From Pseudomonadota bacterium (GTDB lineage: Bacteria; Pseudomonadota; Gammaproteobacteria; Burkholderiales; JABEVD01), in contig JAKBJU010000001.1 of NCBI GenBank assembly GCA_021835845.1, positions 140,908 through 204,907 on the forward strand: 64,000 nucleotides of DNA, in the 5' to 3' direction. Within the stretch, counting starts at the first letter, position 1, and each line of letters starts with the position of its first letter. Under the pieces are notes generated by a model, which was not told the DNA's origin, ran no database searches, and saw only the letters and a list, made by a program, of their open reading frames with translations. Of this stretch, positions 13,051 to 43,985 are shown piece after piece. The translations under genes were made by a program, and so were the position numbers.

Positions 13051-13279
13051 TATCTCAAAATAACGCGAGCTGATGATCCTATGAAAATCTGGTCGCTGCT
13101 TAACCCGTTGGACTCCATGAAATCCGTCCGACCTCATCCGCAAAGCTTACGCTGCAAGCGGCGGGGAATCAACCCTAAGAGATGAAATGAAATCCAAAAC
13201 TCCCTTCTTGGCGCAGCGTTTTTAGGCGCGCATCCCTGTGCTAGAATCAGGACAGACATTCAGCCGAGGAAGCCCTGCC

Positions 13280-13792
13280 ATGAAAAAACTCGCCTTCGCC
13301 CTCCTTTGCCTCGCCTTCAGTGCCGCGCATGCCGAAAGCGTCGCGATAACCATGCACCTCATCGATTCGTCAGGCACCGGCAAGGCAATCGGCACGATCC
13401 GGGCCGAGGACAGCCCCTACGGCCTGATGCTCAAACCGGATCTTTCCGGCCTCGCGACAGGAATGCACGGGTTCCATGTCCACCAGAACGGGGACTGCGG
13501 CGCAAAAATGAGTGAAGGCAAATCGGTGCCTGGACTCGCGGCAGGCGGGCATTTCGACCCCAGAAACACCGGGCATCACGAAGGCCCTTATGGCGACGGG
13601 CACCTCGGGGATCTTCCCGCACTCTTTGTAGACGCGCAAGGGAAAGCGACCCTACCCGTACTCGCCCCCCGCCTCAAGGTTTCCGATCTCAAGGGCAGGT
13701 CGCTCATGATCCACGCCGGCGGCGACAACTACTCCGACAACCCCGCTCTCGGCGGGGGCGGAGCGCGCATGGCTTGCGGCCTGGTTCCCTGA
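13280..13792 (+). CDS. sodC: Cu/Zn superoxide dismutase (exported)
   Basis: Signal peptide [44 protein letters not shown]. Confidence 0.95.
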
Positions 13793-14067
13793 GGAACCAC
13801 TGATTTATTCCCGCGCAGATTGCGTTGCTGAGAAAATCGAGATGATCGCGCGAAGCGCGACGCAGATCGTAGCCGGGCCTACGACATCAAGGAGAGCGAC
13901 AAGGCGAGCGCTCGATTTTTACGCAACCCGATTGGGACGGGGCTTTGCGGGCGATCTTCTTTGTTACGCGGCTCGCGAATGGAATAACCATTCGACTTCG
14001 CCGCGCGCCTCGAATCTCATCTCGCAAAGTCGCCGTCGCGACCATGTGGGAATAAATCAGTGGTTCC
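13793..14067. mobile_element. MITE-like element, copy 1 (275 bp)
   Basis: Perfect 20 bp TIRs GGAACCACTGATTTATTCCC (13793-13812 / 14048-14067); flanks CTGA/CTAA; internal sequence matches the reverse complement of 27505-27777; no transposase. Confidence 0.8.
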
Positions 14068-15039
14068 CTAAGGCTGCGCCGGCACGAAAGGGTCGGCGTA
14101 GATGTCCCGCATTGATGCGCCGGCGAGAAAAGTCTGCTTCTTCGCCGCATTCACCATGGCAGGGTTCCCGCAAAGATAGATCCGCCAGCCTGAGAGCTTC
14201 GGGATATCCTTCAGCGCGACATCGAGCACGATTCCGCTCGAGAAACCGTCGGGAGCCTCCCCTTCCGAAACGCATGGCGTATAGGCGAAATTGGGATAAT
14301 CCCGCGCAAGCTGGCGCAATTCTTCGATCAGATAAAGCCCATCCATGGTCAGACTGCCGTGATAGAGCCGGATTGGCCCGGTGTGCCCGACAAGCAGCGC
14401 ATCCCTGACTATGCCGTAAAGCGGTGCAAGCCCCGACCCGGTTCCAATCAGGAGCAGCCCCTGGTCCGGATTTCCAGGCACGTAGAAACAATCCCCCAGC
14501 GCTTCCGAAATATCCACGGTATCTCCGGGATTCAGGCATTCGTGTATCCAGGTGCTGACGCGCCCGTCGGGAATCTTGCGCACATGCAGCTTGATGCACT
14601 CATCCAGGCTGGACACGCTGGCAAGCGAATAGCTTCTGGCTGTGGAATCGTCCCGGAAAAAATTGATGTATTGCCCGGCCCTGTATTCGAAAGGCCCGAC
14701 AGGATTGAGCTTGACGCACATGATTTCCGAATTCAGCGGCTCCAGCCCTGCCACGGTTGCGGGTATCCTTCCTTTGCCGGCCTCCGGGAAAGCCACATCG
14801 ATATCTTCGGCTGGAATGCATGAGCAGGAGAGAAAATAATTCAGCTCGATCAGGGTAGGCTTGAGTCCCTTCTGGGATTCTGGCGGCACCCGTCCTGAAA
14901 GTGCGCGCATCAGGCAGGTCTGGCAAACGCCTGCCTTGCATGAAGAAGGTACCGGCACACCATGGGCAGTGAGGCAATCGAGAACCGATTCATTCTCTTT
15001 GCAGTCGTAGGACGCATTATCGAAAGTGATCCTTGTCAT
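14068..15039 (-). CDS. 2Fe-2S ferredoxin / FAD / NAD(P)H oxidoreductase (phenol-hydroxylase / CDP-6-deoxyglucoseen-reductase type)
   Basis: N-terminal plant-type ferredoxin motif CKAGVCQTC...C, then YRAGQYINFFRDDSTARSYSLAS (FAD) and LLIGTGSGLAPLYGIVRDAL (NAD). Confidence 0.88.
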   Translation of the reverse strand: MTRITFDNASYDCKENESVLDCLTAHGVPVPSSCKAGVCQTCLMRALSGRVPPESQKGLKPTLIELNYFLSCSCIPAEDIDVAFPEAGKGRIPATVAGLEPLNSEIMCVKLNPVGPFEYRAGQYINFFRDDSTARSYSLASVSSLDECIKLHVRKIPDGRVSTWIHECLNPGDTVDISEALGDCFYVPGNPDQGLLLIGTGSGLAPLYGIVRDALLVGHTGPIRLYHGSLTMDGLYLIEELRQLARDYPNFAYTPCVSEGEAPDGFSSGIVLDVALKDIPKLSGWRIYLCGNPAMVNAAKKQTFLAGASMRDIYADPFVPAQP

Positions 15040-27325: not shown

Positions 27326-27413
27326 GGAGGCGTGGCAGAGTGGTCTATTGCACCGGTCTTGAAAACCGGCGTGCCGCAAGGCACCGTGAGTTCGAATCCC
27401 ACCGCCTCCGCCA
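27326..27413 (+). tRNA. tRNA-Ser (anticodon TGA)
   Basis: GGAGGCGTGGCAGAGTGGTCTATTGCACCGGTCTTGAAAACCGGCGTGCCGCAAGGCACCGTGAGTTCGAATCCCACCGCCTCCGCCA; paired acceptor GGAGGCG/CGCCTCC, anticodon loop CTTGAAA, long variable arm, encoded CCA. Confidence 0.97.
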
Positions 27414-27504
27414 TTTACCATCCCAGACGGATTCAATCATGCATTGGATCCCGCATGCACATTCAGTAAGTTCAGGACCGGAAACTGGCCCGCCGGCTCA
27501 TTAA

Positions 27505-27777
27505 GGAAGCCCTGAACAAGTCCCGCGTGGCCGTGACGGTCGGCTTTGCGGGATGAAACTCGCGAAGCAAGGCGCAGCGAATGGTCATTCCCTTCGCAAG
27601 CCGAGCGACAAGGAGGATCGCCCGCAAAACCCCGTCCCTCAAGGGTTGCGTGAAATCGAGCGCTCGCTTTGTCGCGCTCCTTGGCGTCGTAGACTCGGCT
27701 ACGACCTGCGTTGCGCTTCGCACGATCATCTCGATTTTCCGGCAACACGGCTCATGTGCGACTTGTTCAGGACTTCC
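27505..27777. mobile_element. MITE-like element, copy 2 (273 bp), opposite orientation to copy 1
   Basis: TIRs GGAAGCCCTGAACAAGTCCC / GGAAGTCCTGAACAAGTCGC (18/20); flanks TTAA/CTAA; internal sequence is an inverted match to 13793-14067. Confidence 0.8.
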
Positions 27778-28087
27778 CTAATTACAGGCCATGAGTCAGA
27801 TTTCGCCGATCAACTTGTTCTTGCATCATGCGGGAACCTCCCCTGTCTCTAACAGGCGACACTTATATTCCAATACATTCCAATTAAAATCATAGTGTTG
27901 TGACTTTGACGCGATTCCGGGATCGAACCGCGTCTCTCCTAGGCGACATTCTCGCACCATTGCGGCGAAGCCGGATCTGCTCAATTGAAATAAATACATC
28001 TATTAATCAAGAAGATAGGATAAATATTCAGTTCTGGCCCGATAGTTGCTTCAGACCTTGGGCAGACCATACCACAGGGCCTTGATA

Positions 28088-43452: not shown

Positions 43453-43812
43453 TTATTTAGCGCGCATCGACTTGCGCGGCCCCTTGCGGGTCCTGGCATT
43501 GGTCCTGGTGCGCTGCCCGCGAACGGGAAGCCCGCGCCTGTGACGGAGGCCGCGATAGCAACCCAGATCCATCAGGCGCTTGATATTCATGGACACTTCG
43601 CGGCGAAGATCGCCTTCCACCGTGATATGCGCCACCTGATCGCGCAGCTTTTCGACCTCGGCCTCGCTCAGATCCTTGATCTTGGTCGAGGTGCTGATCC
43701 CTGCCGCAGCGCAAATTTGACGTGCCCGAGTGCGACCAACACCGTAGATCGCGGTCAACGCGATTTCAGCGTGCTGATGATTCGGAATGTTAACCCCTGC
43801 TATCCGGGCCAT
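43453..43812 (-). CDS. rpsM: 30S ribosomal protein S13
   Basis: [34 protein letters not shown]. Confidence 0.98.
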
Positions 43813-43871
43813 TCGTTCACTCCAACTTAGAAAAATTGATAATTATAACACCAGAACCGATCGAAACTCAA

Positions 43872-43985
43872 TCAGCCCTGACGTTGCTTGTGCCTGCGGT
43901 CGGTGCAAATGACGCGCACCACCCGGTTGCGGCGGATGATCTTGCAATTCCGGCAAATCTTTTTCACCGATGCCTGAACTCTCAT
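43872..43985 (-). CDS. rpmJ: 50S ribosomal protein L36
   Basis: Not in the ORF track (too short); manual translation [37 protein letters not shown] (37 aa). Confidence 0.96.

Follow-up and report, generated by a model that had tools for sequence, protein, structure and literature searches.

Non-autonomous elements of the MITE kind are usually defined by their ends. The 64,000-nt stretch of DNA analysed here (the window) contains two such elements of about 275 bp, which have a core in common but differ in their ends, while the two ends of each copy agree. This raises the question of how one core can come to lie between different, internally matched ends. An initial annotation had described the elements at 13793-14067 and on the minus strand of 27505-27777, and had offered three explanations for the agreement of the ends: selection on a terminal stem, mobilization by different parental transposases, or end-to-end conversion. 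Both elements are present at these positions (Table 1). The 20-bp terminal inverted repeats (TIRs) of copy 1 are perfect, while those of copy 2 have 2 mismatches between them. The two TIR types, termed A (copy 1) and B (copy 2), differ at 6 of 20 positions when the GTCCC end of copy 2 is compared with copy 1. The cores are homologous (~80% over ~245 bp), and neither of these short, non-coding elements carries a transposase.

Table 1. Features of the two elements in the window. Model R1 was built partly from copies 1 and 2, which bears on the arm 2 scores given here.
Feature	Position	Strand	Remark
Left target-site tetramer CTGA, copy 1	13789..13792	+	flanks contiguous in relatives
Copy 1, non-autonomous element (MITE), type A, 275 bp	13793..14067	+	
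Copy 1 left TIR, type A, GGAACCACTGATTTATTCCC	13793..13812	+	20-mer also opens an IS5-family transposase gene of a sister species
Copy 1 arm 1, hairpin arm, inverted relative of arm 2	13820..13941	-	model R1, 40.9 bits
Copy 1 arm 2, hairpin arm bearing a conserved motif at the tip	13922..14041	+	model R1, 119.9 bits
Copy 1 right TIR, type A, perfect inverted copy	14048..14067	-	
Right target-site tetramer CTAA, copy 1	14068..14071	+	
Target-site tetramer TTAA at copy 2	27501..27504	+	
Copy 2, non-autonomous element, type B, homologous core, 273 bp	27505..27777	-	
Copy 2 TIR, type B, GGAAGCCCTGAACAAGTCCC	27505..27524	+	20-mer forms one of the ends of an intact IS5-family element (G274)
Copy 2 arm 2	27531..27650	-	model R1, 138.1 bits
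Copy 2 arm 1, inverted relative of arm 2	27631..27750	+	model R1, 48.8 bits
Copy 2 other TIR, type B, GGAAGTCCTGAACAAGTCGC	27758..27777	-	
Target-site tetramer at copy 2	27778..27781	-	TTAG on one strand, CTAA on the other

A search with the core in the same genome and in relatives, the check that the initial annotation had suggested, returned many further copies with several end types rather than one. The genome itself (2.2 Mb, 32 contigs) contains about 20 A-type and 7 B-type copies. It also has a further family of ~273 bp with a third end type, GGGCCTGTTAACACTT, and ~60 bp of core in common; members of this family (L028, L029, L030, and L057) are flanked by CTAG, and one of them (L030) directly abuts an A-type end. 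The resemblance between the window copies is not due to chance, as this genome has at least 20 further copies and sister species have many more. Short, non-coding, bounded by TIRs, and multi-copy, the elements have the features of type II bacterial MITEs. Across the nine genomes of the genus there are more end variants, each matched within its copy (GGAACCGCTGATTTAATCCT, GGAACCACTGATTTAATCCA, GGAAGCACTGATTAATTCCT, GGAACCTCTGAACAGGTCSC). The covariation of the ends is borne out by 54 copies, in which the agreement between left and right ends is far above that of permuted ends (68 TIR mismatches observed versus 89.6 expected by permutation within TIR class and genome, p = 0.0008); the B class of the genome taken alone has no excess of end matching (13 mismatches observed, 11.0 expected). 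B-type copies of four genomes (G000, G004, G005, and G008) combine a GTCGC end with a GTCCC end. This G/C difference at TIR position 19 is fixed in several species and represents a conserved mismatch in a would-be stem.

The elements range in length from 44-53 bp, barely more than two ends, to 307 bp, with one of 356 bp in a sister species. The mini-elements of 44-53 bp (G000:C32:35862-35905, C16:103541-103593, C24:79049-79100, C15:23077-23128, and C17:71766-71815; also in G008 and G002), some of which have identical flanking tetramers, may represent either the shortest form that is mobile or products of deletion. A 79-bp element at L055:1504-1582 (G000:C14:57475-57553), flanked by CTAA/CTGA, has one B-type and one A-type end and is a frozen chimera of the two types. 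At another locus (L022, G000:C16:97623-98852), only 650 bp separate an A-type from a B-type element; the pair flanks an open frame of ~645 bp and resembles a mixed composite.

The 4-bp YTAR duplication that the initial annotation had read from the flanks is real. Flanking tetramers are identical in 24 of 54 copies (7.5 expected by permutation), including 11 of the 27 copies in the genome of the window. Such duplications are often imperfect, as they are at both window copies (CTGA/CTAA at copy 1, TTAA/CTAA at copy 2); one-transition mismatches could represent drift within duplicated stop codons. At 6/6 loci of this genome, copy 1 included, the flanks are contiguous without the element in at least one relative of the genus, and wherever the alignment is clear, the empty site contains a single YTAR-type tetramer (CTAG, TTAG, TTAA, or CTAA). 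At the copy 1 locus the relatives lack the element, with an alignment too unclean for the exact target to be read. Thus, an excess of target-site duplications and empty sites, as found with MITEs, are both present. A mechanism free of duplication, considered for the mismatched tetramers, was rejected because identical pairs exceed the permuted number and clear empty sites hold a single tetramer.

Within the genus, copies are found between genes that are convergent (26), tandem (23), or divergent (3), as assigned by an orientation caller that scored 28/28 in a self-test on its own training genes. On 60 of 109 sides, a frame of at least 100 codons has its stop codon no more than 6 bp from the element, compared with 2-6 at control offsets; for distant copies, described below, the corresponding values are 25 of 89 sides and 1-5. 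At copy 1, the TGA within the left CTGA is the stop codon of a Cu/Zn superoxide dismutase gene (13238-13792), and the right CTAA holds the stop (TAG, minus strand) of an opposing oxidoreductase gene (14068-15039). Since YTAR carries TAA/TAG on both strands, both stop codons can be re-formed when the target is duplicated. Insertion would in this way regenerate a stop codon on either side, allowing gene 3' ends to tolerate the element.

The resemblance of the ends to those of the IS5 group, noted in the initial annotation, proved to be exact: A- and B-type TIRs recur, at 20/20 positions, each at the end of its own, distinct IS5-family transposase gene. The A-type 20-mer lies shortly before an IS5-family transposase frame in a sister species (G002); this frame is truncated at about 186 aa, and no right end was seen. 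An intact IS5-family element of ~1167 bp, in a genome from another family of the same order (G274), has the B-type 20-mer at one of its ends. That element has CTAG on both flanks and a 318-aa transposase, and at its opposite end the match is lost after 17 bases. A decayed IS5-family relative from the genus itself (L156) has a left end with 1 mismatch to the B-type 20-mer. The scores of the A- and B-type transposases both exceed the NF033581 cut-off, and the two proteins share 58% identity over 185 aa. Because the A and B ends are each identical to the end of a different IS5-family transposase lineage, two transposase specificities are the most likely source of the two end types, as the second of the proposed explanations has it. 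Parental insertion sequences (ISs) could be assigned to only two of the many end types. Outside the TIR, blastn found nothing significant in common between the A-type IS fragment and the element core; thus, as in other MITEs, the TIRs match an IS while the core is unrelated to the fragment compared. Within the genome of the window, no intact transposase with A or B TIRs was found, the two IS5-related families searched being decayed or other elements. A transposase of this genome was rejected as the parent, since its decayed genes (L061, L113, and L114) lack A or B ends by blastn.

When forty full copies are aligned end to end, the consensus fold has the TIRs as a terminal stem closing two long arms. 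In this alignment 97.3% of cells are paired, compared with 90.9% after shuffling and 34-41% when the pairing is slid by 1-3 columns, and 174 cells carry double changes, compared with 47 after shuffling; 0 of 500 shuffles reach either value. On the core tree, 30 double changes of the internal helices fall on single branches, versus 2.7 with partners permuted. Such changes are as compatible with selection and fast compensation as with template switching. Arm 1 is matched on the opposite strand by R1, a covariance model of arm 2 that leaves the flanking ends outside, and the element is therefore an inverted pair of related arms. An excess of GU over AC cells, the mark of a selected single-stranded RNA, is seen neither here (25 GU versus 31 AC, for pairs predicted on both strands) nor phylum-wide (57 versus 48), and the two strands fold equally well. 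Compensatory change without a GU strand bias argues for pairing at the DNA level or for a function of either strand rather than of one RNA strand, and the element resembles a palindrome kept at the DNA level more than an RNA under selection. The idea of selection on a terminal stem consequently stands in part: pairing is conserved with compensatory change, but it spans the whole element and not just the ends; the RNA form of the idea does not fit the lack of strand bias, and the fixed mismatch at position 19 speaks against a perfect stem. Selection of a single-stranded RNA as the sole cause was rejected on the equal GU and AC frequencies and the equal fold energies of the two strands. Neither window element has a gathering-score match among the Rfam covariance models, and a relaxed Rfam scan with one distant copy yielded no more than a chance match below threshold.

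The core tree places B-type ends in one main clade and in a copy from another family (G383). These ends arose at least 2 times, a single origin being rejected (p-AU 0.03), and the switch of end type involves both ends at once. End-to-end conversion, the third of the proposed explanations, may lie behind the matched ends, given this joint switch and the 79-bp chimera.

The core extends far beyond the genus. R1 matches 83 of 399 genomes of the order (45 of 159 genera), 18 genomes outside the order in a class-level sample, and genomes related at the phylum level only, that is, from another class, with E values down to 1e-17. All 70 R1 matches in 199 kb of loci fall on elements, and paired hits place a second element at one locus. 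Nearly all complete loci lie between inverted repeats that match at 16-18 of 18 positions, compared with at most 15 at random positions. The ends of 45 distant copies, most of which are 261-286 bp long, differ by 0.49/18 within a copy and by 12.4/18, close to random, between copies; the choice of ends maximizes agreement within a copy, and the random-position null (at most 15/18) provides the fair comparison. Loose clustering gives 10 groups of distant ends, the largest of which is a chain of IS5-like variants, which makes 10 only a rough guide to how many end types are truly unrelated. In an alignment of 70 arms from across the phylum, which was fitted to the structure and is thus biased towards pairing, 94.3% of cells are paired (62.1% shuffled) and 660 carry double changes (168 shuffled). 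The arm tip is conserved, reading roughly GTTGC....CTTGC.AAGGGAA..ACCATT.GCTGCG....GCGCCTTGC. Searches of plasmid and viral collections returned nothing for the element or its TIRs. Some distant members (L256, L257, L264, L265, and others) have other apparent targets, such as GTAC, and ends unlike those of IS5, which suggests transposases of other groups. The breadth of the core and the variety of its ends suggest one small passenger DNA carried by many different transposases.

The reading that we favor, with a probability of about 0.7 as judged from sequence, is that these elements are MITEs moved in trans by IS5-family transposases, with the end type set by the transposase lineage and the pairing maintained at the DNA level. 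The transposases would cut at the TIRs and insert the element at 4-bp YTAR sites; A-type and B-type ends would derive from two different lineages, and the ends of one copy would agree because one transposase has to bind both. With a core made of an inverted pair of conserved hairpin arms, the whole element would form one long palindrome with the TIRs at its base. Mobilization in trans by itself leaves the pairing of the arms and their persistence unexplained. Pairing could be kept by template switching between the arms during replication, by selection for a cruciform or hairpin, or by both, and either could help an altered end to appear at both ends, the palindrome being a route by which the alteration is copied onto the opposite end. 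Template switching at quasipalindromes is known in E. coli (PMC7202029) and has been proposed as a source of compensatory changes (PMC8794818). The outcome would be one conserved core between many different, always matched ends across Proteobacteria. More tentatively, with the odds somewhat against it, the elements might constitute a phylum-wide superfamily of ~270-bp two-armed palindromes, in which the arms are functional in their own right (for example, as a DNA cruciform or hairpin that a conserved host protein binds or that is recognized in the course of transposition), the ends are repeatedly swapped and matched by hairpin-templated copying, and the core is the evolving lineage.

Other explanations account for parts of these data. 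The folded element could be selected as RNA, either as a bidirectional terminator or stabilizer at mRNA 3' ends or, like Neisseria NEMIS, as a site for RNase III. The very stable folds (z about -6) and the location of copies at gene 3' ends, with its orientation bias and excess of stop codons, are in keeping with this. However, it is rendered unlikely by the lack of a GU bias, the equal folding of both strands, the absence of a gathering-score Rfam match, and TIRs that are identical to IS5 ends; stop codons are, moreover, favored by the YTAR targets themselves. RNA-level roles at 3' ends are possible as a secondary effect. A quite doubtful alternative is that recombination between copies, or with IS ends, homogenizes the ends, so that new types arise in one step and spread by gene conversion. 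The 79-bp chimera and the mosaic look of arm variants in the alignment would agree with such a process, but the chimera is the single one among 55 elements and a short deletion derivative, and conversion between copies alone cannot make the ends of one copy agree. The elements might instead be ordinary MITE subfamilies, in which the needs of the transposase match the ends and an ancient inverted duplication has left the core paired as a passive relic. Exact parental TIR matches and the inverted relationship of arms 1 and 2 are what this would predict; yet a passive relic ought to lose its pairing, whereas the base stems of the arms vary freely and stay paired phylum-wide, which makes this explanation improbable. 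Thus, mobilization in trans combined with DNA-level pairing is the preferred reading.

REP units have a GTAG-type foot, are 20-40 bp long and are dispersed by RAYT tyrosine transposases without target-site duplication, whereas the present elements have ~120-nt arms and target-site duplications. REPINs resemble them in being an inverted pair of a smaller palindromic unit (PMC3116915). IS5-family (NF033581) ISs and their type II MITEs are similar in TIR sequence, 4-bp YTAR target, intergenic insertion, and lack of coding capacity; however, the present elements have only the ~17-20-bp TIR in common with the parent, and their core, unrelated to the IS fragment compared, is common to many end types. 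Bacterial MITEs with stable folds are well known (PMC10969869, PMC2229807). Neisseria Correia/NEMIS, enterobacterial ERIC, and Coxiella QMITE2 are short palindromic mobile repeats with a stable full-length stem-loop, but are described there with one TIR type per family and not with a core common to many TIR types. The CIR repeats of Caulobacter and Brucella (PMC2229807) also have two long hairpin arms; these are joined by a linker, have no 5'-3' terminal stem, and contain a GANTC motif. Coral CMITEs have an inner region that is more conserved between families than the TIRs, with a core of unknown origin, but they are eukaryotic and piggyBac-related, and the abstract mentions no two-armed covarying fold (PMC2872659). 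A search of open-access literature found neither the present core nor a comparable range of matched ends surrounding a single bacterial core.

In these elements it is the ends that are the replaceable part, while the folded, non-coding core has been kept in different genera and orders and in two or more classes. The contribution of a MITE core to its own spread and the joint change of two distant ends can now be tested. Covariation at the DNA level without a GU bias also provides a natural data set for the correction of palindromes by template switching, a process that can mimic the signature usually taken to indicate a functional RNA. Elsewhere in the window, a tRNA-Ser (TGA) is located at 27326-27413, ~90 bp from copy 2, and an Alpha operon ribosome binding site (Rfam RF00140) at 43780-43886, as expected for a ribosomal protein operon.
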